DNA from: Tardiphaga sp. vice304
GTDB lineage: Bacteria; Pseudomonadota; Alphaproteobacteria; Rhizobiales; Xanthobacteraceae
DNA length: 64,000 bases
Direction: 5' to 3'
Assembly: GCF_007018905.1 (NCBI RefSeq)
Contig: NZ_CP041402.1
Coordinates: 4,452,001 to 4,516,000, forward strand
In this document: positions 15,774-64,000 of the stretch, one piece after another
Layout of the letters: each line of letters opens with the position of its first letter
Numbering within the stretch: position 1 is the first letter of the stretch
Made by a program: the position numbers and the translations under genes
The notes under the pieces: model-generated
Told to the model about the DNA's origin: nothing
Database searches by the model: none
What the model saw: the letters and a program-made list of their open reading frames with translations, nothing else

Positions 15774-15782
15774 GGCCGCTTC

Positions 15783-16628: not shown

Positions 16629-16629
16629 G

Positions 16630-19061: not shown

Positions 19062-19089
19062 AGCGTCTTCGTGTCCAACCGCCCCAAAC

Positions 19090-19220
19090 TGTCATTTCGG
19101 GGCGCGAGCGGCGCCAGCCGGGCGCGAACCCGGAATCCCGAGTTGTTCAGCGCGCCCCATTTCGAGGTTCCGGGTTCGCTCGCCAGCGACGGTGTCGCTG
19201 TGGAGCGCCCCGGAATGACG
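19090..19220. repeat. Palindromic intergenic repeat between cobO and cobQ
   Basis: CTGTCATTTCGGGGCGC at the left and GCGCCCCGGAATGACGG at the right are near-perfect reverse complements, with further pairing inside (GCGAACCCGGAATC against GGTTCCGGGTTCGC). It fills almost the entire gap between two genes of one operon and differs in sequence from the repeats at 0.9 and 3.1 kb. Confidence 0.8.
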
Positions 19221-19233
19221 GTGAGGGGCTGCA

Positions 19234-19860
19234 TCAAAACTCCACGCCCTTCTGGCCCTTCACGCCGGCACGGAACGGGTGCTTGATGAGCGTCATTTCG
19301 GTGACCAGATCCGCCATCTCGATCAGCTCCGGCTTGGCGTTGCGGCCGGTGATGACGACGTGCTTGTCGGCCGGCTTCTCGTCGCGCAGGAAGGTCAGCA
19401 CCTCCTGCAAATCGAGATAGTCGTAGCGCAGCACGATGTTGAGCTCATCGAGCAGCACCATGTTGTGGCGATCGTCGCGGATCAGTTCCTTGGCGCGCTC
19501 CCAGCCCTTGGTCGCGGCGGCGATGTCGCGCTCGCGGTCTTGGGTCTCCCAGGTAAAGCCTTCGCCCATGATGTGCAGCGTCACCAGTTCGGGAAATCTG
19601 GCCAAGAGCCGCGCCTCGCCGGTGTCCCAGGCCGGCGACTTGGTGAACTGCACCACCGCCACCGGCATGTCGTGACCGATATGACGGAACACCATGCCGA
19701 GCGCGGCGGAGGTCTTTCCCTTGCCGGTGCCGGTGTGGACGATCAAGAGGCCCTTCTCGCCGATCTTGCCGGCCATGATCTTGTCGCGCGCGGCCTTGTG
19801 CTTGGCCGCCTTGAGCTTGTGCTTCGCATTCTCTTGGTCGTCGTGGGCATCGTCGGTCAT
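19234..19860 (-). CDS. cobO: Cob(I)yrinic acid a,c-diamide adenosyltransferase
   Basis: A 208-residue BtuR/CobO-type ATP:corrinoid adenosyltransferase, forming the cobalt-carbon bond. The P-loop LLIVHTGTGKGKTSAALGM lies near residues 38-56. Later landmarks are VVQFTKSPAWDTGE, LDELNIVLRYDYLD and VITGRNAKPELIEMADLVTEM. The start is the ATG at 19860, overlapping the cobN stop by 4 bp (ATGA); the open frame extending to 20157 is cobN in another frame. The N-terminus is Lys/His rich, common in this family. Confidence 0.94.
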   Translation of the reverse strand: MTDDAHDDQENAKHKLKAAKHKAARDKIMAGKIGEKGLLIVHTGTGKGKTSAALGMVFRHIGHDMPVAVVQFTKSPAWDTGEARLLARFPELVTLHIMGEGFTWETQDRERDIAAATKGWERAKELIRDDRHNMVLLDELNIVLRYDYLDLQEVLTFLRDEKPADKHVVITGRNAKPELIEMADLVTEMTLIKHPFRAGVKGQKGVEF

Positions 19861-22800
19861 GCGATTTCCTTGTGCGTCAGTTCGGCGAGCAGATCGGCGG
19901 CACGGTTGGAGCGCGGCGTCCACATTCCGCGGCGGATCGCCTCGGTGAAGCGCGCGGCCGTCTCGCGCAACGCCTCCGGGTTGGCGTCTTGCATGAAGTC
20001 GCGGACGTCGTCGTTCTCCAGATAGGCGGAAAACAACTGGTCGAAATGGTGGTTGGCAACCGCATCGGTAGAGGCGGCAAAGCCGAACAGGTAGTCCACC
20101 GTGGCGGCGATCTCGAACGCGCCCTTGTAGCCGTGCCGCATCACGCCGGCGATCCATTTCGGATTGGCGGCGCGGCCGCGTACCACGCGGGAAATTTCGT
20201 GAGACAGCGGCCGCGCGACCGGCGCCTCCGGGCGCGAGGTGTCGATATGGCTGACCCGCGGCGCCGATCCGCGCAGGGTCTGCACGGTGGCGGCAAGCCC
20301 TCCGATGAACTGGTAGTAGTCGTCAGAATCCAGAATATCGTGCTCGCGATTGTCCTGCGTCTGGGCGACAAGATCGATCCCCTTGAGCTGTTCGGCGAAT
20401 TCGCCGCGCGCGGCCTCGCCCTCAGTGCCGCTGCCATAGGCATAGCCGCCCCAGTCGAGATAGACCTCGGCGAGATCGCCGCGCTTTTCCCAGCCGCCCT
20501 CGTCCATCAGCGCCTGCAGTCCCGCGCCATAGGCGCCGGGCTTGGAGCCGAACACCCGCCGCGTCGCCTGCTCGCGTGCGATGTCGGCGCTGGCACCGCC
20601 GGCCTGCAGCGCGAGCGCACGGGTGCGAACGTTGGCCGCGATCGGATTGGCCTCGTCAGGTTCGTTCAGCAGCGCGATCGCCGCGACCGCCGAGCCAATG
20701 ATGTCCATCTGCGTCGGGAACGCATCGCGGAACAGGCCGGACACGCGAAACGTGACATCGACGCGCGGGCGCTTCAGCTCCGACAGCGGCGTGATAGCAA
20801 AACCGGTGACGCGGCCTGAAGTGTCTTCCCACACGGGCCGCGCGCCGATCAGCGCCAGCGCCTGCGCTACGTCATCGCCGCCGGTACGCATGTTGGCGGT
20901 GCCCCAGGCCGACAGCGCGATCGCGCGCGGCCATTCGCCGGCCTCCTGCCAATAGGCTTCGACCAGCCGCTCGGCCGCGAGCTGCCCGATCCGCCACGCC
21001 GACGGCGTCGGCACGGCGCGGACATCGACGGCGAAGAAGTTGCGGCCCGTGGGCAGCACGTCGGGCCGCCCGCGCGTCGGCGCGCCGGACGGACCGGGCC
21101 GGATGAAACGGCCATCGAGGCCGGCGAGAAACGCCGACATCTCGGCAGCGCCTGACGCGTCGATGGCAGGACGGAGGGTGGAAGAAATCCAGGCGAGCAC
21201 GGAGGATGTTGCGGGCCAACGCTCAGAAGAAATCACACACTCCGCGTGGTCCCCGCGAAAGCGGGGACCCATAGCCGCTGTCGGCGTCGTCTCGCTCGGT
21301 GGCAGTAACCTCGTTAAAGTTTCTGCTTCGGAGGTTATGGGTCCCCGCTTACGCGGGGACGACGTGGTGAGAAATTCGTCGCCTAACAATGCGGCCTCGC
21401 CTGCAGCGGCTTCGTTCGCGACCAGCTGCAAAGCCAGCATTTCGATGCGCTCCACCGTATCTCCGGTCGTGCGCCACAGCGCTTCGCTGATGTCGGCTAG
21501 AACGGCAGGGCGTGGGCCGGTGTAATCCTCCGCCAATTCCCGCGTCAGCGGATCGAACGCGCCCAGTCCCAGATCCCCGGCGATCGCGCGGTGCAACGAG
21601 GCATCCTGCGGCTTGCTCTCCGAGCGCGGCAGGCGAGCAATCGAGACCAGCAGGTCGTTGCGCGCCGCGTCCTGCGGCGTGCGGCCGAAGATGTGCAGGC
21701 CGTCGCGGATCTGCATTTCCTTGAGGTCGCAGAGATGCGCGTCCAGCGCGCGCAACGCCTCCCCGGTCGGCGTGTCGCGCGTCACGTTGACATCGGCATC
21801 GAGTCGCTGCGCCCGCGCCATCGAGAGAATATCCTCGGCGATCACCCCCGCGCGCTTGGGATCGAGATCCGCCGCCAGCGCATATTCGTCGACCAGGTTT
21901 TCCAGCCGCGCCAGATCGTCGTGCAGTTCGGCGCGCGTCATCGGCGGAGTCAGATGGTCGATGATCACGGCAGAGCCGCGGCGCTTGGCCTGGATGCCTT
22001 CGCCCGGATCGTTGACGATGAACGGATAGAGATGCGGCAGCGGGCCCAGCACCGCGTCCGGCAGACAGTCGGCGGATAGCCCGGCGCTCTTGCCCGGCAG
22101 CCATTCGAGATTGCCGTGCTTGCCGAGATGCACGACGGCATGCGTATCGAATTCGCGACGGAGCCAGAGATAAAACGCGAGATAATGATGCGGCGGCACC
22201 AGGTCGGGATCGTGATAGGTGCTCTTCGGATCGATATTGTAGCCGCGCGCCGGTTGCACGCCGACGACCACGTTGCCGAAGCGATGCAGGCCCAGCCGGA
22301 ACGCGCCGTCCACGATATGCGGATCGCTGTCGGCAATGCCCCAGCGCGCCTCGACCGCCAGCCGCACAGTGTGCGGCAGCGTCGCAAACGCGGTCGTATA
22401 GTCGGCCAACGACCACGTCACGCCGCCGCGGCGATCGGCACGATCGGCCAGCGCATTGGTCGGCCCCTGTTGCAGCAGCCCCATCATCGCCGCGGCGTCG
22501 AGCGGTGCCTCATCGATCGCGTAACCGGCGCTGAGCATCGCCGCCAACACGTCGATCAGGCTCTGCGGCGTGTCGAGGCCGACGCCATTGGCGATCCGGC
22601 CGTCGCGGTTCGGATAGTTGGCGAGGATCAGCGCAATCCGTCGCTCGGGTACTTCGGCGCGGCGTAGCCGGATCCAGGCGTGGGCGAGATCGGCCGTGGC
22701 GTCGATGCGGTCCGGCACCGGCTGGAACGTCACCGGCGCAAAACCGCCATCGCTGTCGCCGCGTTCCTTGAAGGCAATCACGTTGGCGAAGATGCGGCCG

Positions 22801-50493: not shown

Positions 50494-50568
50494 GCTCCCT
50501 TCGTCTAGCGGTTAGGACGTTGCCCTCTCACGGCGAAAACAGCGGTTCGATTCCGCTAGGGAGCACCA
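50494..50568 (+). tRNA. tRNA-Glu (anticodon CTC)
   Basis: The acceptor arms GCTCCCT (50494-50500) and AGGGAGC (50558-50564) pair perfectly. The anticodon loop CTCTCAC sits between TTGCC and GGCGA, giving anticodon CTC. The T-arm has GGTTCGATTCC, and discriminator A plus encoded CCA follow. The phage integrase gene begins 125 bp downstream. Confidence 0.96.
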
Positions 50569-50692: not shown

Positions 50693-51823
50693 ATGCCGCG
50701 CTCGCTGCCAAAGTACGTTCAGGCGTTCACCGACCGACACAATAAGCCTCGCTTCTACTTCCGCCGCGCAGGCGTGAAGCGCCAGCCACTGCCCGGCCTG
50801 CCCTACACCCCAACCTTCATGCTCGCGTACGGCGCGGCCTTGGAAGCCTCGCAGCTCGCAGGCGTGAAGTCTGGCAGCAAGGTGCGACTCAGTAAGACGG
50901 AAGGCCCCAAGGTCGCGCCGCTGCCGGGATCGATGTCGGCGCTGGTCGCCGAATACAAAGCCTCGAAATACTTCGGCAGACTGGGGCCGACCACCATCAA
51001 GAATTACACCCGGCTCTTCGACAAGCTGGAAGCTGAGGTCGGCACCTTCCCGGTCAAGAAGATGCGCCGGGCCGACGTCGAGCGCATGATCGACCGCAGG
51101 GTTAAGGCTGGCGGTCCCGAGGCTGGCAACAGCGTGCGCCGCGTCCTGAAGCTGCTCATGAAGGTCGCGGTCCAGCGAGGCTATCGCGAGGACAACCCCA
51201 CCCTTGGCGTCGAGAAGGCCGAGGCCCCCTTGGGAAAGAAGGGCTACCGGACGTTCAGCGAGGCCGACGTGTCAGCCTTCATCGCCAAGTTCCCCTTGGG
51301 CACCCGCCAGTACCTCGCCCTGTCCCTCCTGCTCTGCACGGCGCAACGGCGGTCCGACGTGGTCAAGCTCAGCCCCAAGAACATTGTGGGGACCTATGAC
51401 CCGACCGACTTCGCGGGGCGGCGGCTGGCGCTGACCCAGATCAAGACAGGGAAGCAGCTGGTCATCCCCATCGCGGATATGTTGCGGGAAGCTCTTGCGG
51501 TCGCGGCGGTGCCGGCCGGTGCGCCAGCTTTCATGCGGACAAAGGATGGCAGAGCGTACACCCCCGAATCGTTCTCCAACCTTTTCAGCGCGTGGTCTAA
51601 GCGTGCCGGCATAACCGAACAGGCTTCGCCTCATACCCTGCGCAAGGCTGCAGCTCGCCGGCTGGCACAGGCGGGCTGTTCCGTCCACATGATCGCGGCC
51701 ATGACCGGCCACGACTCCCTTGCCGAGGTCGAGAACTACACCAAGGCAGCCGAGCAAGAAGGGCTGGCTGACATGGCTATGCTGCAGCTACAGCGTCCCA
51801 AGGGTTTACCTCAACCTCTGTAA
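50693..51823 (+). CDS. int: Phage-type tyrosine integrase
   Basis: A 376-residue recombinase. An N-terminal arm/core-binding part is followed by the catalytic domain: LSLLLCTAQRRSDVVKLSPKN with the first Arg near residue 218, then the HTLRKAAARRLAQAG box (His, Arg) near 314 and MTGHDSLAEVENYTKAAEQ with the nucleophile Tyr near 345. All key residues look present. It should excise and integrate the element at tRNA-Glu. The 3' end overlaps the antisense excisionase-like gene by 47 bp. Confidence 0.92.
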   Translation: MPRSLPKYVQAFTDRHNKPRFYFRRAGVKRQPLPGLPYTPTFMLAYGAALEASQLAGVKSGSKVRLSKTEGPKVAPLPGSMSALVAEYKASKYFGRLGPTTIKNYTRLFDKLEAEVGTFPVKKMRRADVERMIDRRVKAGGPEAGNSVRRVLKLLMKVAVQRGYREDNPTLGVEKAEAPLGKKGYRTFSEADVSAFIAKFPLGTRQYLALSLLLCTAQRRSDVVKLSPKNIVGTYDPTDFAGRRLALTQIKTGKQLVIPIADMLREALAVAAVPAGAPAFMRTKDGRAYTPESFSNLFSAWSKRAGITEQASPHTLRKAAARRLAQAGCSVHMIAAMTGHDSLAEVENYTKAAEQEGLADMAMLQLQRPKGLPQPL

Positions 51824-52578: not shown

Positions 52579-52744
52579 GCCAAGGCACCGTTGCGGCCCT
52601 AATCGGGCCTACCGCTGGCCTCGCTTAACGCATAGACGAGAAGTTCGCTAACCCCTATTGTCGTCTTCGCGGGCGCTACTACGCTCGCCGAGCCAGTTTT
52701 TGAACTAAGATTTTTTTGGTTAGTTGCGTCGGCGTGGGGGCAAG

Positions 52745-53710
52745 ATGTGGGACTTATCAGCGCGTGAATTTGCGAACAACTTGCCCGCGCTTTGTTGGAT
52801 CGCCCAACCCGATGGCTACATCGCTTGGTACAACAAGAGATGGTACGAATTTACTGGCGCAACCGTTGAAGAAATGGAAGGCTGGGGCTGGCAGTCTGTC
52901 CATAAGCCTGAAGAACTTCCTGGGGTACTTGAGCGGTGGCGCGGCTCGATATCCTCTGGAGAACCGTTTGAAATGGTTTTCCCGCTGCGGAAATTCGACG
53001 GCACCTTTACTCCATTTCTGACGCGGGTAAATCCTGCGAGAAATGAAAGCGGTGAGATCACTGCTTGGTATGGGGTCAACACCGAAATAACCGAGCAAGT
53101 GCAGGCGGAAGATGCACTCGCTCTGCTAGCAAACGAGCTGAGCCACCGCATCAAAAACATATTTGCCGTCGTTTCGGGTTTGATATCGTTCTCAGCACGA
53201 TCCGTCCCCGCCTGCCGAGAGTTTTCATTTGAGTTATCAAAACGAATTGCTGCATTGGGCAAAGCACACGATTTTATTCGCCCGCACAATGCTTCATCAT
53301 CCAAGCTCATCGCCACTTCAATGTTCGACCTCATTCATCAGTTACTTGCCCCCTATCAACGAGACGAGCGAATTCTCATTACCGGAAAAGACTTGCAGGT
53401 GAACGAGCGAGCGACAATGTCTCTTGCTCTGCTTTTCCATGAGCTTGCTACCAACTCCACAAAATACGGATCGCTATCGACTGCGGAAGGCCTAGTCGAG
53501 ATTTCTACAGAGGTAACCGAGACCGCGTTGAAAATTAATTGGGAAGAGAAGCGCGGTCCTCCGGTCGCAACTCCAATGAGTTTAGGTTTCGGCTCAAATC
53601 TAACGCGAATTAGCATCGAGGCGCAGCTCAGTGGGAGAATTACCTATGACTGGAAACCGAAAGGATTGATCGTCTGTGCATCCATACCCTTGGAGGCCGT
53701 GCTACCATAG
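52745..53710 (+). CDS. PAS-HWE-family sensor histidine kinase
   Basis: A 321-residue soluble kinase. An N-terminal PAS domain (LPALCWIAQPDGYIAWYNKRW to GVNTEITEQ; residues about 12-120) precedes the HWE domain: phosphoacceptor ELSHRIKNIFAVVSGLISF near 131-149, N-box LLFHELATNSTKYGSLS near 230, and the Trp-x-Glu motif INWEEKRGPP. The glycine-rich end GFGSNLTRISIEAQLSG completes the ATP lid. I use the ATG at 52745 with GGGGG upstream; a TTG at 52724 is less likely. No response regulator is adjacent. DNA is AT-richer than the core genome, consistent with phage cargo. Confidence 0.88.
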   Translation: MWDLSAREFANNLPALCWIAQPDGYIAWYNKRWYEFTGATVEEMEGWGWQSVHKPEELPGVLERWRGSISSGEPFEMVFPLRKFDGTFTPFLTRVNPARNESGEITAWYGVNTEITEQVQAEDALALLANELSHRIKNIFAVVSGLISFSARSVPACREFSFELSKRIAALGKAHDFIRPHNASSSKLIATSMFDLIHQLLAPYQRDERILITGKDLQVNERATMSLALLFHELATNSTKYGSLSTAEGLVEISTEVTETALKINWEEKRGPPVATPMSLGFGSNLTRISIEAQLSGRITYDWKPKGLIVCASIPLEAVLP

Positions 53711-53895: not shown

Positions 53896-54208
53896 CTAAC
53901 GTGGCGCATCACTGATAAAGCGCACACCTATAGTATTTTCTTTGCGCCACACCACTTCGCAGGAAAGTACCACCGTTTCCATCTCAAGTACCAATGTAAA
54001 TTTGTCGGGAATGCCGATTGGGCTTGTCACACCGAGCGCAGCGCCAGTTTTCGAGACGTTTCGCACAGGTGCACGTGATCGCACCGCCGTTCGCGAAAGT
54101 CATTCTGCCAGCCTTAAGCACACGACGGCGCGGCGCAATCCGCCCCTCCGGCTGAACGTCCCCCTTCGTCGTGCGCTGATCAGGCAACGTCGTGCTCGAT
54201 GATTTCAT
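53896..54208 (-). pseudogene. PilZ-domain protein gene broken by a single-base insertion
   Basis: Two minus-strand frames join to one PilZ-type protein. The first part (from ATG 54208) has EGRIAPRRRVLKAGRMTF and FANGGAITCT, containing the RxxxR c-di-GMP motif. The second part (to the stop at 53896) has VRNVSKTGAALGVTSPIGIP and VVWRKENTIGVRF. They meet where TGCACC is followed by one extra T before GTGCGA (base 54067 on the plus strand); without it the frame would read through as CTVRNVSKTG. It is either a disabled gene or a sequence error. It overlaps the diguanylate cyclase stop region (54180). Confidence 0.8.
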
Positions 54209-55259
54209 CTTCTGAAACAGTTTGATTGCGCCCCATCCGCTTTGCCTGATACAGGCCTTTGTCGCAGCGCACGACCATTTCTTCAGAAGATTCCCCTAAG
54301 CGATATTGAGCAACGCCAATGGAAACAGTTACATTGCCAATTTCGGCCCCAGATACGCGCTTTTTCAATCGAGCATCAGATATTCGTTTGCGGATGCGTT
54401 CAGCTAGTTCTTTCGCGGCGTATAGATTGACCCCCGGTAAGACCGTGATTAGTTCCTCGCCGCCGTAGCGTGCTGCCAAATCCGACTCTCTAACACTGCT
54501 TTGCAGAACATTCGAGACGAGCTTGAGAACCTGATCGCCAATTTGATGACCGTGACTATCATTGAATTTTTTAAAATGGTCGATATCAATCATGAACACA
54601 CTAAGCGCACCTCCTGTCTCCATTGCCCCTATCAGGGCCGAGCGAAAGAAGTTTTCTAACGACCGACGATTTGCCAAGCCGGTTAAAGAATCGGTATTCG
54701 ACCGCTCCTCCGCCTCGTGCAATGAGACGCGAACCTTCTCCAATTGTTCAGATGTCGATGCAAAATTTGCTTCCAACGCAGTTGCGCGTGAAGTAGCTTT
54801 TGCCAGCTCGCCGACTAATCTAAGAATGATAGGGCGAGGGTCCGTAGCAGACTTACATTCGACAGATGCTTTACTTAGGTCCGCGATTTGAGTTTTGTTG
54901 TCCGCAATAGCTGCTTGCAGAAAATTTCTCGCACCACTTACGGCGCCATTCAACTGTTCCGCTGCGCTGCCTACATCGGGGGAGCCGGTTGGCGTCCCGA
55001 TGAAGGTATTGAAAAGTTCTCTATCTATCGATGCATCAAACTTTTGCCTGTTGCTCAGCATGACATCGATAGTCTTACGGAGCATTGGCGGCGTACCCAA
55101 AGTATATGCGAACCAAACGCTGAAGTTGTCAGGCGTTGCTGGCACTGACTGTTGTGACATGGTTCGAAGTGCCCGGTCGGCGACATTGGCCGAATATTCT
55201 AGGTCCATCTCATCAAAACGATCCAAAACCATAAGATTTCCCGCTACTAAATCATTCAT
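54180..55259 (-). CDS. Diguanylate cyclase (GGDEF domain)
   Basis: A 359-residue soluble protein. The N-terminal 190 residues are helical with a long coiled stretch (TALEANFASTSEQLEKVRVSL) before the GGDEF domain: DSLTGLANRRSLENFF, FMIDIDHFKKFNDSHGHQIGD and the active site AARYGGEELITVLPG near residue 266. The motif reads GGEEL rather than GGEEF, a conservative change. A late helix has VTVSIGVAQYRLG and CDKGLYQAKRMGRNQT. It lies directly upstream of the broken PilZ gene. No transmembrane segment is seen; the N-terminal sensor is not recognised. Confidence 0.9.
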   Translation of the reverse strand: MNDLVAGNLMVLDRFDEMDLEYSANVADRALRTMSQQSVPATPDNFSVWFAYTLGTPPMLRKTIDVMLSNRQKFDASIDRELFNTFIGTPTGSPDVGSAAEQLNGAVSGARNFLQAAIADNKTQIADLSKASVECKSATDPRPIILRLVGELAKATSRATALEANFASTSEQLEKVRVSLHEAEERSNTDSLTGLANRRSLENFFRSALIGAMETGGALSVFMIDIDHFKKFNDSHGHQIGDQVLKLVSNVLQSSVRESDLAARYGGEELITVLPGVNLYAAKELAERIRKRISDARLKKRVSGAEIGNVTVSIGVAQYRLGESSEEMVVRCDKGLYQAKRMGRNQTVSEDEIIEHDVA

Positions 55260-55792: not shown

Positions 55793-55993
55793 TCACCGGT
55801 TGCCCCCGATCAGTGCCGAATAGAAGCCGTAAAGCCAGTGGATCGCGAGGAAGGTGACGGCCCCAAAGCCCAGCGTTAGCCCCGCGCCCGCAGCCATATG
55901 GATAGCTGCGAGCGGAAGGTGGGGCCACGCAATGACTGCCAGCGGTGCGCCCGACAGCAGCACGACGGCATATGTCCATTGCACATCCGTCAT
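55793..55993 (-). CDS. Two-helix small membrane protein, possible holin
   Basis: A 66-residue protein with two hydrophobic segments (about residues 7-23 and 30-55) joined by a short turn with Pro, and a basic end GGNR. Its ATG overlaps the previous gene's stop by 4 bp (ATGA), so it is the last gene of the phage operon. Size and topology fit a class II holin, but no lysin is next to it, so this is only a possibility. Confidence 0.65.
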   Translation of the reverse strand: MTDVQWTYAVVLLSGAPLAVIAWPHLPLAAIHMAAGAGLTLGFGAVTFLAIHWLYGFYSALIGGNR

Positions 55994-56427
55994 CGTGCCG
56001 GCCGGTCGAGTTGACCGCTGCGGCCCAGCTGAACGACATCAAGTTCGATGCGGCTGATACCGTCAGGCTTCATGTCAGTGATCTCCCATTGCGTCTTGTC
56101 CCAGCAGCGTTCAATCCGATAGTGCTGGCGAAGCGGGAACGGCAGTTCGCACGCCTTCACTGAGAAGCACGGCTTTCTTGTGCTGATCAGCGGCGCGAGG
56201 TCGAACTCCCTGTTACCAGAAGCCGGCTCGCCCTTCTTGCTGAACGCCATCACTGCCTTGTGAGTAAACACGGCAGTGATAGAGAACGGCAACAGCGACG
56301 GGTCTGGCATAGATGGGAAGTTCGGCTTTGCCGTGTAGGGAAAGACGGTGACCGTCTCCCCCATGGTGTCATTGATAGCAGAGGCCATTTCGTTCGCGGC
56401 CTCACGGAAGTAACTAGCGAAGGTCAC
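55990..56427 (-). CDS. Phage structural protein, possibly head-tail or tail completion
   Basis: A 145-residue protein starting MTFASYFREAANEMASAIND. The end WEITDMKPDGISRIELDVVQLG resembles the last strands of small head-tail joining or gpU-type proteins, but I cannot name a family. It follows the tape measure with a 15-bp gap, where tail-tip or completion proteins are normally found. Confidence 0.55.
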   Translation of the reverse strand: MTFASYFREAANEMASAINDTMGETVTVFPYTAKPNFPSMPDPSLLPFSITAVFTHKAVMAFSKKGEPASGNREFDLAPLISTRKPCFSVKACELPFPLRQHYRIERCWDKTQWEITDMKPDGISRIELDVVQLGRSGQLDRPAR

Positions 56428-56442
56428 TGCCTTGCTCCTGTG

Positions 56443-58728
56443 TTAGTGGTGCCCGCCTGAAGGGTTGCCAGTTGATACGGGTTGAGCACCATTGCTGCCG
56501 CCCATGTTGAAGCCGGTCTTGCCGCTGCCGGCCTGTCCCTTCAAGTGCAGCACTGCGGCCTCTAGACCATCGATCTTTGCCATGAACATCGGCGACGGCG
56601 TAAGCGAGATGTTCGCAGTGATATTCGCCTGCCCCGTCATCTCGCCTGTAACAGTCACCGGCACGCTGGCAGCGGGGGCCGCTGTTCCATCAACCGTGTC
56701 CCGGTTATCCCACTTTTCTCGGAGTTGCTTGCGCAGAGCGCCATTGCCGCCGCGACGCGTGGCCTGCTCGACATTAGCGTTACCGCGTTCTGCGGCTTCC
56801 TTGGCTTGCTGGTCCGCCTCTTCGATTGCGCGTTTCATCCGATCTTCGGCATCCGCCTTGATAGCAGCCCGAGCGGTGTTCGATTTGCTATGGTCACGGT
56901 CTACGCCTTGCGTCTTATCGCTGGTCGCTTCATAAATGATTGGCACAGCAGCAGCCACGACAGCTCCGACGACAAGGCCCTTTGCGAGCGCACCGACTGC
57001 TCCTGCAATCTTGCTGCCAGCCGTTGCAGCCGCAGCGACAGGGCCGGCGGCAGCAGTGGCAGCAGTAGTTGTGACAGCGCTGGAAGCAATACCCGGAATG
57101 CCTCTTGTCGCGAGCAGGTTCAGCGATGCAGCCGCACCAGCTGCAGACGCCCCCAACGATATGACGCTCGCGACGGAACCGAGCGCAGCAGCGCCAAGCC
57201 CAAACACGCCACCCGTCACCGCTCCCATCTTCACGTTGTCCGGTAGAGCGTCGAATGCATTCACGATCTTAGTGACAGCCCCGACGACACCTTCAATCGG
57301 TGTCGCTGCCAGCTTGACAAGGTTCTTCTCTGCGCTGTCCGCTGACGATGCTAGCCTGTCCAGCGCGGCCCCAAGGCCCTGCTGACGTTCGGCCGCGATC
57401 TTACCCGCAAGTCCGGTGCCGTTGTCCAGCTCTTCGCGGTTCTTCTTATAGGTGTCCAGCGCACCCTTGAGCATGTCGAACTTCGCACCCTGCTTTACGC
57501 CCAGATAGGCTAGCAGTTGCTCCGGCGACATCTTCTCCAGCATCTTCGCTAACAGCGCATCGCCCTGCAGATTGGTCTGCCCGAGCTTGTACTGAGATTG
57601 CGCCGCCGACGTCACATGCTTGGCGTCGGTTTTGGACAGCTTCCCGTCGGAGGCTTCGACCGTTTCGACTACAGCCTGCGAGAAGTTGCTGCCGCTCTCC
57701 AGAACCTTGCTGACGTCCGCGTCGATCTTATCCTGTAACGCTTTCTTTGCAGCCGCACTTAGAGCCTTGCCAAACTTGCCCTTCATCGTATTGCTGACAG
57801 CATCAGGGGTAATCGACTGATGGTTAGAATAGTCGTCGTAGTTGATGCTCGCAGCTTCGAGAGCGCGCCTGCCTTCCAATGTCGGAGACAGCAGCCGAGC
57901 ATAGAGCTGACGCTGGAACGTTCCGGACTCATCGCCGCTGATCTTCGCTCGCATCAACGTCATCGCGATAGCAGAGTTGGTCTGCGGCGATACATGCGCA
58001 ACGGACGCCATCGCTCCAGAATACTTGGTATTCGCTTCGATATCGTCTGCGGACAGTGCGCCTTTCTTCATCATCACCGTCGCCCGGTCGGCGGCCTCTT
58101 TGAACTTCTTGTGCGCCTCCGCGACGTTGTGCGGTGCTTCCTCTTCGCCTTGAGTGAAGACCATCGACTCGATCAGCGTCGCAGCCTTCTCGAGCGGAAT
58201 GTCGAGCGCCTTGCCGACCGTGATCGCGTATTGAGTTGCGGCCTCGGTCATCTCCGCGCTGAACTGCCGCTTAACGAACTCATTCTGCGCGTGCAGCGTC
58301 TGCTCGACGGGAACACCCCGCGTCTTGGCTGCCTCGACCCGCTGCTTATCCAGCATGTCCATGTCTTGGGCATTGTAACGCCCATCGGATCGATTGTGGT
58401 CCGTCGAGGCTGCCTGTTGAAGCCGCACTTCCTTGTCGTATTTGCCGTAGTCGAGCACCTTGTCTTTTACTTGGTGCGCGACCTTCCCAGACAGATAGCC
58501 GCCAGCGATGCCCGCAATGTCGTGGTGCATCTTCTTGATATTGGCAAGCGTACTAAGCTGCTCTTTCGCTGATCGGTTCGCCGTCTTGAACGGATCGACG
58601 TTGCCGCTCCTTGCAAGAGCGGCGCTGGTTTCTGCGGCGATCATCTTCGCCATCGCAGCGAGTTGCTTTAATGCCGGTGAAGCCTGATCATCGACGATGA
58701 TGCTGGCTGTGACGGTCGGGTTTGTCAT
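56443..58728 (-). CDS. Phage tail tape measure protein
   Basis: A 761-residue protein. The first 450 residues are helix-rich and Ala/Lys rich (e.g. ASIIVDDQASPALKQLAAMA at the start). A hydrophobic Gly/Ala zone (about residues 495-620, VTGGVFGLGAAALGSVASVI and later [20 protein letters not shown]) fits the membrane-interacting part. A Glu/Lys/Arg coiled stretch near 640-680 follows, and the end is Gly/Ser/His rich. This matches TP901/P2 gpT-type tape measures, which set tail length. A 761-residue tape measure would suggest a fairly short tail. Confidence 0.85.
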   Translation of the reverse strand: MTNPTVTASIIVDDQASPALKQLAAMAKMIAAETSAALARSGNVDPFKTANRSAKEQLSTLANIKKMHHDIAGIAGGYLSGKVAHQVKDKVLDYGKYDKEVRLQQAASTDHNRSDGRYNAQDMDMLDKQRVEAAKTRGVPVEQTLHAQNEFVKRQFSAEMTEAATQYAITVGKALDIPLEKAATLIESMVFTQGEEEAPHNVAEAHKKFKEAADRATVMMKKGALSADDIEANTKYSGAMASVAHVSPQTNSAIAMTLMRAKISGDESGTFQRQLYARLLSPTLEGRRALEAASINYDDYSNHQSITPDAVSNTMKGKFGKALSAAAKKALQDKIDADVSKVLESGSNFSQAVVETVEASDGKLSKTDAKHVTSAAQSQYKLGQTNLQGDALLAKMLEKMSPEQLLAYLGVKQGAKFDMLKGALDTYKKNREELDNGTGLAGKIAAERQQGLGAALDRLASSADSAEKNLVKLAATPIEGVVGAVTKIVNAFDALPDNVKMGAVTGGVFGLGAAALGSVASVISLGASAAGAAASLNLLATRGIPGIASSAVTTTAATAAAGPVAAAATAGSKIAGAVGALAKGLVVGAVVAAAVPIIYEATSDKTQGVDRDHSKSNTARAAIKADAEDRMKRAIEEADQQAKEAAERGNANVEQATRRGGNGALRKQLREKWDNRDTVDGTAAPAASVPVTVTGEMTGQANITANISLTPSPMFMAKIDGLEAAVLHLKGQAGSGKTGFNMGGSNGAQPVSTGNPSGGHH

Positions 58729-58871
58729 CGTCCACCTTTTTGCTTCTCACGATCCTTGAAGAGATCGTTGCCAGCCATAATCCATGTGTACAGGCGTGAA
58801 AGCGAGAAGGCCTCGACCGTGTCAGGGTCGAGGCCATAGTCGAACACCAGAATGGCGCTCGCTCGTTTCAC
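58725..58871 (-). CDS. Short overlapping frame between tail chaperone and tape measure
   Basis: A 48-residue frame from GTG 58871 to TGA 58725. It begins inside the stop of the upstream gene (GTGA) and ends inside the tape-measure ATG (ATGA). The peptide has ILVFDYGLDPDTVEAFSLSR and YTWIMAGNDLFKDREKQKGG. In P2- and Mu-type phages the second tail chaperone (E', gpT) is read by a -1 shift at this spot. This could be expressed by such a shift or by restart. Confidence 0.65.
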   Translation of the reverse strand: MKRASAILVFDYGLDPDTVEAFSLSRLYTWIMAGNDLFKDREKQKGGR

Positions 58872-59194
58872 GCTTCCGTGGGGTCCGATCCGGCGACTCC
58901 GATGATCAGGTTGGTTGCGGCGTTGCGGAGCAAGAAGTAGTCACTCGCGCTAACCTTCCCGAGGATCATGTCGTCAAGGCCCGACATGTCCTGCAGGAAC
59001 TTGCCGAGTACCTTGTGATTGTAATCGAACTCGACGCGGTCGCTTTGGCCCTCGTTTATGACACGCATCTTGAACGGCTCGCCATGTTCGAAGAACGAAC
59101 GGGCCTTCGGTTCTTTCAGCGTGATGGTGGTTGCTTCCCCGCTATGGGTGAGCAGCGGGGACTTGAGGGTGACGGTGACGGTGGGTGCAGACAT
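58868..59194 (-). CDS. Phage tail assembly chaperone (P2 gpE / Mu gp41-like)
   Basis: A 108-residue protein. TVTLKSPLLTHSGEATTITL then LKEPKARSFFEHGEPFKMRV and DMSGLDDMILGKVSASDYFLL follow the pattern of the TAC_7 family: a beta start, a conserved LxEP motif near residue 27, and a helical end. Its place directly before the tape measure supports the call. The related E/E+E' system uses a frameshift near the end. Confidence 0.72.
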   Translation of the reverse strand: MSAPTVTVTLKSPLLTHSGEATTITLKEPKARSFFEHGEPFKMRVINEGQSDRVEFDYNHKVLGKFLQDMSGLDDMILGKVSASDYFLLRNAATNLIIGVAGSDPTEA

Positions 59195-59203
59195 AATAGC
59201 TCC

Positions 59204-59425
59204 TTAAAGCTGGGGTGCGGGAAGTGAGATGTTCGTGGCGCAGGCCTTGCCTGATCGGCCGTCGGTAGACAGTTCGTAGTTTATGGGATCGCCTTCGCGC
59301 AGGAAGAAGATGCCTGCGCTTATGACGTCGCGGATATGCAGGAAGACGTCTTTTCCGCCACCCTCCGGCGTGATAAATCCGAACCCCCTGTCGGCATCGA
59401 ACCAACTAAGCTCGCCGGTAGCCAT
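59204..59425 (-). CDS. Cold-shock-domain protein inside the phage operon
   Basis: A 73-residue protein with a full CSD: LSWFDADRGFGFITPEGGGK contains the RNP1 motif (RGFGFI), and DVFLHIRDVI the RNP2 motif. It differs from chromosomal Csp proteins in a long insert IFFLREGDPINYELSTDGRSG and in its acidic loops. Its ATG overlaps the stop of the 194-codon gene upstream by 1 bp (TAATG). A phage-encoded RNA chaperone or antiterminator is a plausible role; this is inference. Confidence 0.88.
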   Translation of the reverse strand: MATGELSWFDADRGFGFITPEGGGKDVFLHIRDVISAGIFFLREGDPINYELSTDGRSGKACATNISLPAPQL

Positions 59426-60009
59426 TAGTTCGCAACTCCAAGGATGGCGCTGATCGTCGCGCGGGCGTCGAGGCCGACCGACGCGAACGCCGATCCATAG
59501 CTAACGCCGGTCTGGGAAACGATGGAGAGGCCGAGCTTAATTTTCCTGGCTTCGACCGCAGCCGCCTCGTTGCCTTTTTGGCCGTTGCGGGTCAAAGCGG
59601 TAACTCGCAATTCTGCACGCCTGTTAAAAGATGCTACGTCGGCGGCGGACAGTTTCGAGGTCGAGGTGGTCATGGTGGTGTCGTCCTGTTCGGTGGGAAG
59701 GCCCCGCAACGTGGCGGCAGCACTGGTGAGGGAAAGGGTATCGGCGGTGAAGTTGTCAGCCAGAGCGGCAGCGGCAGCCGGTCGGCCTTGAGCCTCAGGC
59801 AGCGCGGCAACAAGTTGCGAGAACGTCATGGGTCGCGGTGTGTAGCTCGCGACGGCCGGCGCTGGCTTGGAGACTGATCGACTGGTCGTCTGTGCGCTTG
59901 CAATCGTGAATCCTTTTGCTTCTGCGGCTCCGATTGTTTCCCGACTACCGTCAGGCATGATGCACATGCTGCGGTACGTCGGACAGCGCGTTGCGGTCTT
60001 CGTTGTCAT
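59425..60009 (-). CDS. Phage protein with scaffold-like helix motif
   Basis: A 194-residue Ala/Thr-rich protein. TFSQLVAALPEAQGRPAAAA and LADNFTADTLSLTSAAATLR (near residues 61-100) resemble the helical C-terminal segment found after prohead protease domains in other phages (pattern E-A-x-G-R then helices). A second helical block follows (SAADVASFNRRAELRVTALT). There is no protease domain. It could be a scaffold relic or a new small protein. Confidence 0.55.
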   Translation of the reverse strand: MTTKTATRCPTYRSMCIMPDGSRETIGAAEAKGFTIASAQTTSRSVSKPAPAVASYTPRPMTFSQLVAALPEAQGRPAAAAALADNFTADTLSLTSAAATLRGLPTEQDDTTMTTSTSKLSAADVASFNRRAELRVTALTRNGQKGNEAAAVEARKIKLGLSIVSQTGVSYGSAFASVGLDARATISAILGVAN

Positions 60010-60020
60010 GTCGTATGTCC

Positions 60021-60323
60021 TTAGCGATAGCGGTTATGCGGGAAGCCAAGTGAACCGGCTGGCCGTCGTGGCGTCCCCATTGCACGGCCCCGATTGTTCA
60101 CGGTGCCGTCCCCGTTGCACATGTGCTCCAGACGTTGCACTTCCAGCCGCAGCTCTGCTACGTTGGTCTGGTGATATCGCAGCGTCTGATCGCCAAAGCG
60201 GATTTCAGCCCGCGCCTGTCCCGCCATCAACGTGTATAGCGCAGCTCGCAGTTGCCCCAGATATGCGCAGGGGTTGTCGATGTTCGGCGGCGGGGTCGCC
60301 ACCGGATTGCAAGGGTTGGTCAT
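60021..60323 (-). CDS. gpW-like head-tail joining protein
   Basis: A 100-residue protein. CAYLGQLRAALYTLMAGQAR followed by TLRYHQTNVAELRLEVQRLE has the alpha/beta pattern of lambda gpW: a first helix ending LMxG, a beta hairpin, then a second helix. In lambda W stabilises packaged DNA before tail joining and lies before the portal gene; here it follows it. The ATG overlaps the portal stop by 4 bp. Confidence 0.75.
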   Translation of the reverse strand: MTNPCNPVATPPPNIDNPCAYLGQLRAALYTLMAGQARAEIRFGDQTLRYHQTNVAELRLEVQRLEHMCNGDGTVNNRGRAMGTPRRPAGSLGFPHNRYR

Positions 60324-62056
60324 CGCTTCGGCTTTCTCGTTCGCAACGGTGAAGCTCCGCCCTCGTCGGCGATGTCTTCAGCTGCAATGTCATCTTCGTT
60401 GTCCGGTGTCGGGGCGGTCGGCCCCTTGGGGTTAATCTCCTTCGGCTCGCGCCACAGGCCCAGCTCTTTCAGCACCCGCATCTCCTGTGCTCTCTCTTCC
60501 GCAACGGTCTCAAAATCCAGACCACGCTCTGCGAGAGCTGACGACAGGGTGCCGAGACCTTCCTCGATCTCCAAAACAGTCGCTTGGGCATCTTTAAGTT
60601 TGTCGGCCGATACTTTACCGATACCGAGCCATTTGCATTCGTGGTACAGATGCTGATTGCCGTAGTACGGCACGACACCGGCTGGCATTTTAATTTCATT
60701 GGTAGCAAGGGCCTCTTCAAGCCACGCTTCAAAGGTCTGCTGATAGAACGCCGCCGCGATGTCTGCTCGCCGTTGCATCGTAATGCGATGCGGCGTTTCT
60801 GCAGATAGTCGGGACGCCGAGAAGCTCGTCTTGCTATAATCCCCGCTCACGTCTTCGGCCGACATGCCTGCAGACTTGCTTGCTTGACGGCTCAAGCTGG
60901 CATCGAACTCCAGATATCCCGCAGACGGGTTCTGCGCGCGGTGCAGCTTTAGACTGTCGCCCTTCGGCAGCGGCGCGATACTTCCCAGCTTCGGCGGCAG
61001 TCGCGCGTAAAACGCTGCGCGGTCGGCTTCGGTGCTGCCTGCAATAGCGACGCCGCCCGGCTGCTCATAACCGAGGCCGTCATCGACCTTGAGATTATTC
61101 AGTGCCTGTGCACCCGGCAGTGACGACTCCAACGTGATGGCAATTTGCGCCTGCACGTTCGCACTGGTCAGCGTGGTCTCTTGCAGCACCGCTTTCGACT
61201 GCGCTGGCGTCAGCGCAGGAGCTACAACCGGATATCCCCGCACCTGCGCACCATCTCGCAACTGGAACAGATAAATCACGTTGCGCCGCCCAAACCCCGT
61301 AAAGGCAGGAATACGCACCGGCAGCGGCGTGTACAACGTGTGCCCCATAATGAACTCGCGGATGTGGTACGCGATTACGCGACCGTCCCCGTTGAACTCG
61401 ACCCCGTTCTGCACAGCTACACCATCGCGGCCCTTCTCGAAGTTCCGCTGCTGGTCGAGCTGGCTGGTCTGCAACAGCTGCACCTTCGTGCGGGTCCGCG
61501 AGTTGGCGACCTTTTTCCAGCGCAGCAAAGCCAAAACCTCACCAGACCGCATGAACGACTCGAAAGCCGCCGAGGCTAATTGATCTAAATTGTGTCGGCC
61601 AGCGAGATCAACTTCTAGGGCATCCTTGCTCCAACGAATCCACGCTTTCTCAATCTGAGAGCCGAACTTGCGCGCAACGTCGGGCGATAACCCCAACGCT
61701 TCCGGGTCGAGCTTCATGCTGAGATTGAGGCCGGTGCCGACCGCATGCGTCACGCCGTTCATAATGATCGTCGAGATGATCGGGTCACTGATGGCAAGCT
61801 GCTGGCTGGCACTGATCGCGGCGTTGCGGTCGCGGCTGAGATACCCGCCGGTCTGCAAGGTGTAGCTGCCAGCCATGGAGCGAAAGCCCGACCAGACATC
61901 ACGGTCCTGCGAATTATCGTTTGCCGATGACGCGAAGCCAGACGATGGCAGCCCCTGCGCAAATGTTGACTGCGACAGGAGCGCTTTTGGCATCGACGGG
62001 GTCGTCAGCGCAGGCGACCCCATAAATGCAGATTTCACTTTCGATAAAAACGACAT
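60320..62056 (-). CDS. Phage portal protein (lambda gpB-like)
   Basis: A 578-residue protein of the lambda-type portal family. GGYLSRDRNAAISASQQLAI near residue 70, AGRHNLDQLASAAFESFMRSGEVL near 151, the LLQTSQLDQQRNF strand and DGDGRVIAYHI-like segment (FNGDGRVIAYHIRE), and SAEDVSGDYSKTSFSASRLS near 399 are typical. The acidic C-terminal tail (DNEDDIAAEDIADEGG) is usual. The 12-mer portal carries DNA into the capsid, but no capsid gene follows. Confidence 0.88.
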   Translation of the reverse strand: MSFLSKVKSAFMGSPALTTPSMPKALLSQSTFAQGLPSSGFASSANDNSQDRDVWSGFRSMAGSYTLQTGGYLSRDRNAAISASQQLAISDPIISTIIMNGVTHAVGTGLNLSMKLDPEALGLSPDVARKFGSQIEKAWIRWSKDALEVDLAGRHNLDQLASAAFESFMRSGEVLALLRWKKVANSRTRTKVQLLQTSQLDQQRNFEKGRDGVAVQNGVEFNGDGRVIAYHIREFIMGHTLYTPLPVRIPAFTGFGRRNVIYLFQLRDGAQVRGYPVVAPALTPAQSKAVLQETTLTSANVQAQIAITLESSLPGAQALNNLKVDDGLGYEQPGGVAIAGSTEADRAAFYARLPPKLGSIAPLPKGDSLKLHRAQNPSAGYLEFDASLSRQASKSAGMSAEDVSGDYSKTSFSASRLSAETPHRITMQRRADIAAAFYQQTFEAWLEEALATNEIKMPAGVVPYYGNQHLYHECKWLGIGKVSADKLKDAQATVLEIEEGLGTLSSALAERGLDFETVAEERAQEMRVLKELGLWREPKEINPKGPTAPTPDNEDDIAAEDIADEGGASPLRTRKPKR

Positions 62057-62061
62057 TTCGA

Positions 62062-62421
62062 TCAGTCCTCGTTCAGCTTGACGGTGTAGCCCTTGGCGTG
62101 ATTGAACGCCTTCATGCTGCCTTTAAGCTCTTCAAGGCGTGCAGCCTTGGGGTCGCTGTTCATGCTCGCCGCACCGGTGTTGCCGGTGAAGTTCACGGCC
62201 TCGCGCTCCATGGCCATCAGGAACTTTGAGCTTGCGTCTTCCGGCATCTTCGCGAGCAGGTCGAGCACTGTGTCGGTCGTCAGGTCGGTGTTGAGCGCGA
62301 GCTGCAAAGCCGCATCGCGTCGGGACTTGCCGACTTCGGAATTGACGATGCTGCTGATACGGGCACGCTCGACGGCCACGATGGCGCTGACAGCGGGAGT
62401 GTTGGGTGAGAGTTTAGCCAC
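62062..62421 (-). CDS. Small phage protein between terminase and portal, scaffold-like motif
   Basis: A 119-residue protein with VERARISSIVNSEVGKSRRD then LALNTDLTTDTVLDLLAKMPED. This is like the helical segment that follows S49-type prohead proteases (ERxRI ... exxxR ... LA ... s.e.A..LL...P). No protease residues are present. Its start overlaps the terminase stop by 8 bp, and it ends 5 bp before the portal start. The usual neighbour here would be gpW. Confidence 0.6.
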   Translation of the reverse strand: MAKLSPNTPAVSAIVAVERARISSIVNSEVGKSRRDAALQLALNTDLTTDTVLDLLAKMPEDASSKFLMAMEREAVNFTGNTGAASMNSDPKAARLEELKGSMKAFNHAKGYTVKLNED

Positions 62422-64000
62422 GTTGGCCTCCGGTGTTGAAGACAGCGCTCATGACATCAAGAGCGTCTGCAGTTGGTTTTGGTTGTTGTGCAGTGGCAGG
62501 CTTACTGCGGTCCGGCTTCGCGAGCGTGGCGACTGCCGAGGCGTACACGCAACTATCAAGCGCCTCGTTTGCCCGCACCGTTTTCTCGAAGCGGTAGCTG
62601 ACGAAGCCATGCTTTGGCGTCCCCACCAATTGTTCGGATGCGAGGCCGTCGAAATAGTCCGTATCCAAATGCGATGGCAGATGGATGTAACCGGGACCGA
62701 CGGCCTGCATTGATAGCCGCTTGGCAATCGACAGCTTGAGGCCATCGACCCCAATCAGCAAAAGCCGGACCACGCCTTTCAAGCGACCACCCTCGCGGGT
62801 AGCAGGCTTGTCGAAGCCAGCCGTTCCTTTGATTGCATAGCAGCGTCGCGATTTCTTGCGTTGCATCAACACAAACTTGTTGACCTGATCGGCGCTGAAC
62901 CCCGAGTCGATTGCGCTGATCTGTACGGGCAACGAGCGCCCGTCCAGCAGCTGAAAGCGTTGACCGAGCGCGTCGTCGAGGTCCAGCCAGACCGTATCTG
63001 CGCTGGTGTCCCCGCGCAGGATGATGTGGTTCAGCACGTAGGCCTGGCCCTGCTCACCCTTTGGCCCAGAGTGTCCCGTCGCAAGTATGGTACACTCCAG
63101 CCGGTCGCCCTGAACGTCAACGCCAGCGCAGACGTGTTGAATGTCCGCCGGGTATGGCGCAACGATCTCAACAGCTCGTTGCTGTAGTTCGGAAGACGAC
63201 AGATCGATCTCAGTTCCCGCGTCGTACACCTCGGCGAGTGTGGTATTAAAAAAGCTCTGTTTCATCTCCGGGGTGGTCGCGGCGTCGAATTGCGCGGCCA
63301 CACTGGCGAGGGTCGAGAACTTGGACGCCAATTCGTTTAGGTGGTACGAACGTACACCGGGTTCACCGAGCGCAGTGGCGACCCATGTTCCGCCGTCCAC
63401 CATTTTGCGCTTCGTCGTTTCATCGTGAAGGCATCCGCATTGCTCGCACATAAGCTGTGCGGCTTCTGGCTTGCCCTGCTCCCACTTCAATTGCTCGAAT
63501 GAGAGCGGCGCGCGGTGGTCGCAGTCGGGACAGGCAACAAAGAACCGACGTTTATCGCCGCGTTCGAACCACGCAGCAACCCGTGACCCCATACGTGATG
63601 TCGGGGTCGAGATGATCACCACCTTGCGGCCTGCGTTCTCAAACGTCTTCGTTCGTTTGATGGCGAGCGAGACAGGATCACCCTCGACGCCGACCGACTT
63701 AGCGAAGCGGTCCACTTCGTCGAGGAACAGATACTTGATAGCTCGCGCCGCGAGGTCGTCCGCCTTGAAGCTCGATCCGAAGTCGATCTGTCCGCCGGGA
63801 AATGTTTTCGACGTCAGGCTGTCAGCGCCGCCGGTTGATCCTTTGCGGGTTGCGACCCCGCGGCCGACCAGCGCGCGCAGCGTAGGGCTGGCTCCGATCA
63901 GCGGGTCGATACGATTTCTAACAAGCTGCTCCGCTTTTGAACTCGTAGGGCTGACGTGCAACGCAGGTCCCGGATCGCTCGCGATCACATAGGCCATCTG
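62414..64000 (-). CDS. Phage terminase large subunit (lambda GpA-like), 5' part beyond the window
   Basis: A partial gene with 527 codons after the ATG at 63997, which I take as internal because the GpA family has about 100 residues before DPGPALHVSPT. Walker B YLFLDEVDRFAKSVG, a CxxC pair (CPDCDHRAP, CEQCGC), and nuclease-domain aspartates CAGVDVQGDRLECTI and AIDSGFSADQVNKF follow in order. It cuts and packages DNA concatemers into heads. The Walker A is outside the window. Confidence 0.9.
   Translation of the reverse strand, partial: QMAYVIASDPGPALHVSPTSSKAEQLVRNRIDPLIGASPTLRALVGRGVATRKGSTGGADSLTSKTFPGGQIDFGSSFKADDLAARAIKYLFLDEVDRFAKSVGVEGDPVSLAIKRTKTFENAGRKVVIISTPTSRMGSRVAAWFERGDKRRFFVACPDCDHRAPLSFEQLKWEQGKPEAAQLMCEQCGCLHDETTKRKMVDGGTWVATALGEPGVRSYHLNELASKFSTLASVAAQFDAATTPEMKQSFFNTTLAEVYDAGTEIDLSSSELQQRAVEIVAPYPADIQHVCAGVDVQGDRLECTILATGHSGPKGEQGQAYVLNHIILRGDTSADTVWLDLDDALGQRFQLLDGRSLPVQISAIDSGFSADQVNKFVLMQRKKSRRCYAIKGTAGFDKPATREGGRLKGVVRLLLIGVDGLKLSIAKRLSMQAVGPGYIHLPSHLDTDYFDGLASEQLVGTPKHGFVSYRFEKTVRANEALDSCVYASAVATLAKPDRSKPATAQQPKPTADALDVMSAVFNTGGQRG

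Follow-up and report, generated by a model that had tools for sequence, protein, structure and literature searches.

What is the role of a phage-like locus that encodes a packaging motor, a portal and the ruler of a tail, and that has no recognized gene for the shell or the tube? This question was raised by a morphogenesis module on the chromosome of the soil bacterium Tardiphaga sp. vice304 (genome G000, a single contig of 5.79 Mb). A stretch of 64,000 nt of this chromosome (C1:4452001-4516000), called the window here, was analyzed together with the flanking DNA to its right (locus L003, then L004; L003:10249-10271 corresponds to window coordinates 74249-74271). Protein families were assigned by Pfam searches with the curated cut-offs and by PHROG profile searches of the translated frames. 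The module belongs to an integrated element which, judging from its genes, is probably a phage satellite that has its own motor, portal, neck, scaffold and ruler and would borrow the shell, tube, sheath and tip from a helper phage. An earlier note on this DNA had proposed either a deletion or a streamlined element that uses the capsid of another phage. The module contained the following genes:

55793..55993, minus strand: 66-aa protein, hydrophobic by eye, at the position of the small protein p106 in relatives; the only Pfam match (DUF6789, 0.01) was below the cut-off
55990..56427, minus strand: head-closure protein (Hc1, lambda FII-like), 145 aa; phrog_82 (Hc1) 0.012, Phage_attach 0.08
56443..58728, minus strand: tail tape measure protein, 761 aa; PF10145 (PhageMin_Tail) 1.4e-11, phrog_1533 6.2e-12
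58725..58871, minus strand: second frame of 48 aa, which overlaps the chaperone gene at its end; 57% identical in the relative L025
58868..59194, minus strand: tail assembly chaperone (P2 gpE / TAC_7 type), 108 aa; PF10109 0.0023, below the cut-off
59204..59425, minus strand: cold-shock protein (Csp), 73 aa; PF00313 4e-15
59425..60009, minus strand: Scaf2, second scaffold-like protein, 194 aa; domain pattern in common with Scaf1
60021..60323, minus strand: gpW head-tail adaptor (Ad1), 100 aa; phrog_75 1.4e-8, PF02831 6.1e-5, over the cut-off
60320..62056, minus strand: portal protein of the lambda family, 578 aa; PF05136 6.1e-59, phrog_21 1.9e-82
62062..62421, minus strand: Scaf1, scaffold-like protein without a protease domain, 119 aa; phrog_8399 (head scaffolding) 1.9e-5
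62414..64246, minus strand: large terminase (TerL) of the gpA type, 610 aa, its end outside the window; PF05876 ATPase 1.4e-63, PF20454 nuclease 5.9e-58
L003:243-947, outside the window: small terminase (TerS); phrog_57 1.5e-22
L003:1099-1695, outside the window: gpZ-like tail-completion or neck protein; phrog_27 5.4e-7

The order from the terminase on the right to the tape measure on the left was the one given in the earlier note, the frames it had named were all open at their positions, and the profile identities of TerL, the portal, gpW, Csp and the tape measure were over the cut-offs. About 1.1 kb separated the portal from the chaperone; in a prophage of G000, the corresponding matches were about 6.8 kb apart. 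Profile searches of three small proteins, suggested in the same note, linked the 119-aa Scaf1 to head scaffolding and also to the C-terminal part of the S49 head maturation protease (phrog_53, 6.3e-5) and a family of unknown function (1.7e-5). They gave a weak call for the 145-aa head-closure protein, which was over the Pfam cut-off in the relative L026 (5.5e-6), and zero Pfam or PHROG family matches for the 194-aa Scaf2. The chaperone of L026 was over the cut-off as well (PF10109, TAC_7, 1.2e-5). In 6 of the 6 elements compared, the chaperone gene is followed by an open frame that overlaps its end, at what we take to be a position like that of E' in P2, and no consistent slippery heptamers were found at the end of the chaperone gene.

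The compact module could be the remains of a decayed prophage, that is, an ordinary lambda-like phage from which the genes for the capsid, protease, tube and tip have been deleted, and the genes that are present are homologous to ordinary phage genes. However, the same capsid-less order recurred across genera and in viral contigs. When 391 genomes of the family were searched with the tape measure, 19 had a match, G000 included, and ten regions were compared. In five of them (L025 to L029), the order gpZ-TerS-TerL-Scaf1-portal-gpW-Scaf2-chaperone-tape measure was kept, with proteins 25-61% identical to those of the vice304 copy. These five relatives came from Bradyrhizobium sp. Ghvi (G368), B. 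neotropicale (G309) and metagenome-assembled genomes of Bradyrhizobium (G336), Tardiphaga (G244) and Afipia (G261). Hc1 was matched in four of the five, L027 being the one without it. The Csp gene, which sits between Scaf2 and the chaperone in the vice304 copy as had been described, was missing from the module in all five. When the 391 genomes were searched with a portal profile, the five relatives and G000 had E values below 1e-250, G218 had an intermediate value of 4.6e-133, and the remainder were at 1.8e-99 and less significant. G218, a more distant seventh genome, had the same gene order.

The order from gpZ to the chaperone was also found in 12 viral contigs (L060, L063, L064, L065, L066, L067, L068, L069, L071, L072, L073 and L134, of which L071 and L072 were near copies). 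Scaf2 was matched in nine of the 12 (not in L066, L068 and L134) and Hc1 in eight (not in L066, L067, L068 and L072), and the tape-measure match was weak, about 43-56 bits, in L066, L067, L068, L071, L072, L073 and L134. Among the other contigs, L074 was the G368 element again, and L061, L062, L070, L089 and L127 were partial or opened elsewhere. The search for this order in other genomes, which the earlier note had called for, therefore yielded five further genomes, G218 and 12 viral contigs, a recurrence beyond chance. The distance from the portal to the chaperone was 0.9-1.8 kb in all of these. In L061 and L063, which were the longest, a head maturation protease of the S49 type separated the portal from gpW, still with no capsid match. 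The claim that the module has no protease gene thus held for the vice304 copy and not for L061 and L063/G392, the latter two being permuted copies described below. The portal match of G467, from another family (L181), may be the same element as L134, as the match values were nearly equal. Two protein-profile searches of environmental sequence found at least 194 relatives of p106 and at least 164 of Scaf2, both lower bounds because only candidates sharing most words were scored, and the element family looks common there. Among the loci with weaker portal matches, six (L146, L147, L148, L182, L183 and L188) had an S49 protease match beside the portal, and the other short loci examined showed none. 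Additionally, L186 (G675) carried a compact TerL-Scaf1-portal-gpW-chaperone order with about 0.9 kb from portal to chaperone, its portal lying outside the satellite clade described next.

A tree of 93 distinct portal sequences (reduced from 103 by removal of duplicates, with segments shorter than 400 aa excluded) placed 19 distinct satellite portals in one clade with a support of 1.0, apart from 74 other portals, rather than scattered among phage portals. Sequences had been classed as satellite by the similarity of their portals and by their layout, and capsids were looked for in only some of the short control loci. The single clade therefore argues for one old lineage instead of repeated recent deletions, and does not imply that the clade and the loss of the capsid coincide perfectly. 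The genes were under purifying selection in the pairs compared, as indicated by pN/pS values of 0.17-0.63 across eight genes and three pairs; in several cases, synonymous sites were saturated. For L027 and L029, the tape measure had a dN of 0.10 and a dS of 1.01, and the chaperone a dN of 0.11 and a dS of about 1.0. The shared order at 25-61% identity in five further genomes, the purifying selection and the single portal clade contradict the deletion that the earlier note had offered. Since att-bounded copies with integrase and replication genes and a circular or concatemeric copy also exist, as described below, a decayed prophage is hardly credible.

The borders of the element and its other genes were located as follows:

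50494..50568, plus strand: tRNA-Glu (CTC), found with ARAGORN; its last 23 bp (50546-50568) form the left attachment (att) core
50693..51823, plus strand: tyrosine integrase, 376 aa; PF00589 1.7e-21
52724..53710, plus strand: cargo, PAS plus HWE histidine kinase; PF07536 2e-13
54180..55259, minus strand: cargo, GGDEF diguanylate cyclase; PF00990 5.1e-46
L003:4083-6779: primase/helicase-like protein, 898 aa; PF13481 1.9e-16, phrog_906 8.9e-21
L003:8214-8972: AAA ATPase, 252 aa; PF13481 3.3e-6, no PHROG match
74249-74271 (L003:10249-10271), outside the window: right att core, an exact 23-bp repeat of the tRNA end

The element extends over 23.7 kb from the tRNA-Glu at 50494 to the att repeat at 74249-74271. 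To the right of the window, TerS and the gpZ-like gene were followed by replication genes. The earlier note had pointed to this side as the place where a capsid and tube set might lie in normal order, and none was found in the end of the module, the replication genes or ten proteins beyond the right att site. These ten proteins, from the next 22 kb, matched only an integrase and unknown-function families in PHROGs and no structural family. A 46-bp repeat of the tRNA end (50523-50568) recurred at 96326-96371 with a second integrase (94882-96183) adjoining it, and so a second element (74272-96371) seems to follow the first in tandem, both using the att site of this tRNA-Glu. This stretch encodes an 834-aa protein of phage families of unknown function. 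Within the window, a 62-aa frame (53896-54084), similar by eye to a PilZ-type fragment, adjoins the kinase and the diguanylate cyclase, forming a small set of signalling cargo.

Repeats of tRNA ends also bounded the elements of G309, G336 and G368, with 48, 46 and 49 bases at the tRNAs for Arg, Pro and Lys and bounded sizes of about 23.0, 23.5 and 21.8 kb, respectively. The search for att repeats gave none for G261 and a single 14-base match for G244. An integrase was present in 9 of the 13 viral records searched. The cargo differed among the elements; in G336 and G309 it included a type IIG/ISP restriction-modification enzyme and an Mrr-type endonuclease, respectively. Elements of about 22-23.7 kb bounded by tRNA att sites, with an integrase, their own replication genes and no capsid to the right, support the satellite proposed in the earlier note, which would borrow its capsid; integration and replication genes of this kind, together with a virion gene set that is incomplete as judged by homology only, are found in phage satellites in general. 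A domesticated host system, similar to a gene transfer agent or a tailocin, would be another explanation, and capsid-type genes (PF05065) were present elsewhere in four of the seven satellite genomes. However, the element carries its own integrase, the att sites lie at four different tRNAs and its presence is sporadic (strong portal in 6 of the 391 genomes), as in a mobile element, and the tube and tip expected of a tailocin were not found, so that a domesticated system is scarcely credible at all.

Evidence for a circular or concatemeric form came from the viral contig G392 (22,413 bases), which was circularly permuted relative to L063. Positions 1-7537 of L063 aligned at 99% with the right end of G392 (14864-22413), and positions 7542-12274 aligned at 96% with the left end (1-4739). 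The ends of G392 thus adjoin inside Scaf2, and therefore a circle or a head-to-tail concatemer exists. Among the longest contigs with relatives of p106 or Scaf2 (120 best rows per search), 25 of 213 distinct lengths were at 21-27 kb, versus four at 18-21 kb and two at 27-30 kb. This is the pattern expected of free elements, and assembly habits could contribute to it. No end repeats of 15 bases or more were found in G392, G394 and G395, and no identical ends in ten contigs. The end of G394, considered as a sign of packaging, was uninformative because it terminates in a gene that by eye resembles an IS110-type transposase.

Of the proteins scanned in the vice304 copy, none was identified as a capsid, protease, tube, sheath or baseplate protein, as judged by homology only; the small open reading frames outside the scan were all 211 aa or less. 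By this measure the element has no recognized protease, capsid, tube or tip gene of the kind that a complete lambda-like prophage carries between the portal and the tape measure or beyond them. The ten proteins scanned in the G368 element also included no capsid, protease, tube or sheath, and matched a primase/helicase, a kinase-labelled family (73 aa) and unknowns in PHROGs. A resident prophage of G000 (L033, C1:2818001-2838000) with a lambda-type head and a contractile tail was used for comparison. Its portal, Hc1, chaperone and tape measure were homologous to those of the element at about 24-33% identity, but it carries genes for an S49 protease, a capsid, a sheath and a baseplate, and the vice304 element has none of them. 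It also encodes a separate scaffold-like protein (phrog_17040, labelled head maturation protease, 2.4e-11; phrog_8399, 2.2e-5). When its proteins were run against 35 member sequences of the satellite family (overlapping sets, some short), the capsid, sheath, hub and wedge queries matched 0 of 35, Hc1 and the tape measure matched many, and the S49 protease matched only L061 and L063/G392. As a control, the same capsid query matched 36 of 74 control phage loci and 15 of the 22 loci of 20 kb or more. Fourteen control loci had no protease or capsid match, and 13 of them were about 12 kb or less. The capsid profiles phrog_29 and PF05065 matched 0 of 13 viral satellite records, which are possibly fragments. 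In the seven satellite genomes, phrog_29 had a match in two and PF05065 in four, all outside the elements.

A self-sufficient virus with capsid and tube proteins too divergent to recognize would fit the conserved small proteins p106, p80 and p98, which had no family match (p96 was outside that scan). However, the conserved unknowns were only about 74-130 aa, and the larger non-core genes common to the relatives compared were limited to the integrase and replication genes. p106 was predicted from seven sequences to be all-helical with five helices (mean pLDDT 80), unlike a tube or an HK97-fold shell, and had no match by sequence to solved structures. Because the sheath, tip and lysis proteins would have to be unrecognizable too, such a virus is very unlikely.

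During phage assembly, the scaffold and the portal nucleate the head, the terminase docks on the portal, and gpW and FII/Hc1 close the head, while gpZ completes the tail and a chaperone-coated tape measure sets the length of the tube. The satellite encodes exactly these parts and none of the bulk polymers, and the mechanism proposed is the following. The element would excise from the tRNA and replicate by its own primase/helicase. Upon arrival or induction of a helper, it would make TerS/TerL, the portal, gpW, the head-closure protein, gpZ, the two protease-less scaffolds, the chaperone and the tape measure. Scaf1 and Scaf2 would draw the helper capsid protein onto the satellite portal, perhaps into a smaller head, and the satellite terminase would fill this hybrid head with satellite DNA. 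The tape measure and the chaperone would set the length of a tail built from the tube, sheath and tip of the helper. We infer from the gene content that a helper is used, its capsid remodelled, its tail made chimeric and the packaged DNA chosen in this way. Somewhat better than even is the broader proposal that a widespread class of satellites supplies the whole virion axis, from motor, portal and neck to scaffold and tail ruler, and takes only the bulk polymers of shell, tube, sheath and tip from the helper, so that hybrid head size and tail length would be set by the satellite.

When Scaf1 and Scaf2 of six elements were aligned, both had a common segment around a conserved L..P motif, in most of them with DP-AAR...FN, and Scaf1 matches lay inside Scaf2 in four of the five relatives. 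Direct BLASTP of Scaf1 against Scaf2 of the vice304 copy gave no match, and the link between them rests on the relatives. In one relative (P0222), an S49-protease domain call and protease-like sequence were found ahead of Scaf2, and so Scaf2 is best read as the scaffold tail of a protease minus the protease.

The same structural proteins could also be dominant-negative decoys that spoil the virions of incoming phages, a defence cargo that does not serve transfer of the element. Tail assembly is a known target of defence, in the parts of the reports on Tai (PMC11364771) and Tab (PMC10884400) that bear on it, and two sibling elements (G336 and G309) carry restriction genes as cargo. A decoy, however, would not need TerS, TerL, a portal, an integrase and a primase together, and decoy and mobility roles may coexist, as in PLE. 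Such an assembly poison is considered unlikely.

For the tail half of the satellite model, the PLE satellites of Vibrio cholerae may be taken as a working experimental precedent. Their own tape measure and hub were found in virions with tail components of the helper, the tails were shortened by about 10 nm, and transduction fell when tmp was removed (PMC12987554). According to the same paper, phage tails are hijacked by every well characterized satellite with double-stranded DNA, and PLEs are the earliest known case of a satellite that builds its own tape measure into chimeric tails (PMC12987554, 2026). PLEs encode a tape measure and a tail chaperone, both varying as a block (PMC12987554), and the vice304 family encodes both. 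PLE virions contain capsid proteins of ICP1, however, and the section that describes the chimeric tails names no PLE portal (PMC12987554). The vice304 family is set apart from PLE by its TerS, TerL, portal, gpW, Hc1 and gpZ and its Hyphomicrobiales hosts. The head half of the model, an own portal and terminase acting with a capsid from elsewhere, would go further than this precedent.

The capsid-forming PICIs (cf-PICIs) are described as having their own terminase, portal and connectors (PMC10690885, PMC12987554), as the vice304 family does, and some are said to carry putative tmp genes (PMC12987554, Extended Data Fig. 10 legend). They differ in encoding a capsid and a protease and depending on helper tails (PMC10690885, PMC12987554), whereas the vice304 family has no recognized capsid, mostly no protease (only L061 and L063/G392 have one) and carries tail-length genes. 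The Streptomyces phage satellites MulchRoom and MiniFlayer share terminases, portal, scaffold and head-tail adapter but are described as encoding a major capsid protein and no recognized primase (PMC10690885). The Pseudomonas satellite Phi-AH14b is likewise integrated, has a primase and uses the capsid of another phage, but no terminase was reported for it, and its own proteins went undetected in particles (PMC4936722). Among titles and the openings of abstracts, with subscription papers mostly outside the coverage, which makes this weak, no satellite with a portal and terminase and no capsid was found, nor such an element in Bradyrhizobium. In the literature searched, the family thus tentatively appears not to have been described before. 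If the reading is true, the family goes beyond PLE, as the portal, motor and neck are kept and the shell is dropped, the mirror image of the cf-PICIs. It would provide a natural test of which parts of the virion determine the size of the head, the length of the tail and the specificity of packaging.

Several points weigh against a satellite that depends on a helper. The element is known here from sequence, and no helper was identified. As a candidate capsid donor, L033 was not supported by co-occurrence: its capsid was present in 33 of the 391 genomes, namely 1 of the 6 strong satellite genomes (G000) versus 32 of the 385 others, with no enrichment. A tail sheath was found in only one of the seven satellite genomes, the L033 scaffold query matched 0 of 35 members, and L033 itself may be defective because its sheath gene holds one in-frame TAG. 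The absence of a capsid is limited, since it rests on homology and some small frames of the vice304 copy (211 aa or less) lay outside the scan, and a 265-aa protein of the G368 element had a marginal tail-fibre match (0.0095). The right border of the vice304 element is also less certain because its repeat is 23 bp (46-49 bp in the relatives) and a 46-bp repeat lies further right at 96326.

Because there was no helper association, co-occurrence was not used as support. A review mentions a cf-PICI in a strain with 17 prophages, none of which mobilized it (PMC11389934), so that the absence of a helper signal is weak evidence. The profile phrog_29 added a weak match in G336 (C16:71798, 3.0e-11), with a portal match of the lambda family about 5 kb away, and G336 may therefore hold another lambda-head prophage. 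A tblastn search with the portal against 50,697 phage records returned 561 records, all below 60% identity and at most 29.7% among the 25 matches listed, from which no helper emerged; the L026 tape measure had no match in phage isolate records.

The ruler genes and TerL differed in their relationships. The chaperone, tape measure, p106 and p80 were closest among L027, L028 and L029 (57-85%), whereas TerL of L027 was closest to L025 and L026 (68-70%, versus 51-57% with L028 and L029). The portal did not follow TerL, L027 being 66% identical to L029 and 63% to L025. The history of the ruler block therefore differs from that of TerL, which would help an element to fit different helper tails. By eye, the C-termini of the satellite tape measures resembled those of L033 and L030 and differed from L016, L017 and L020, which hints at a contractile-tailed class of helper.

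Through tape-measure matches, simpler loci were also found in the same bacterial family. L030 (G209) contained an excisionase, a chaperone, a tape measure, a weak AAA match and an integrase-like frame. L031 (G389) had an integrase-like frame by eye, a scaffold-like protein with two matched stretches and a tape measure at the contig end, and L032 (G155) had an integrase-like frame by eye, an AAA protein, an S49 protease (286 aa) and a tape measure. The queries used gave no TerL or capsid match in these three and at most one portal match, of 87 residues (L031, 27.6%, 0.003). They are possibly a second type of satellite, and such loci, with a scaffold or protease plus a tape measure or a chaperone plus a tape measure, suggest that redirecting a helper takes, at the least, a scaffold and a ruler. 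In the truncated locus L034, the tape measure was followed by proteins that resembled a fibre and a methylase by eye.

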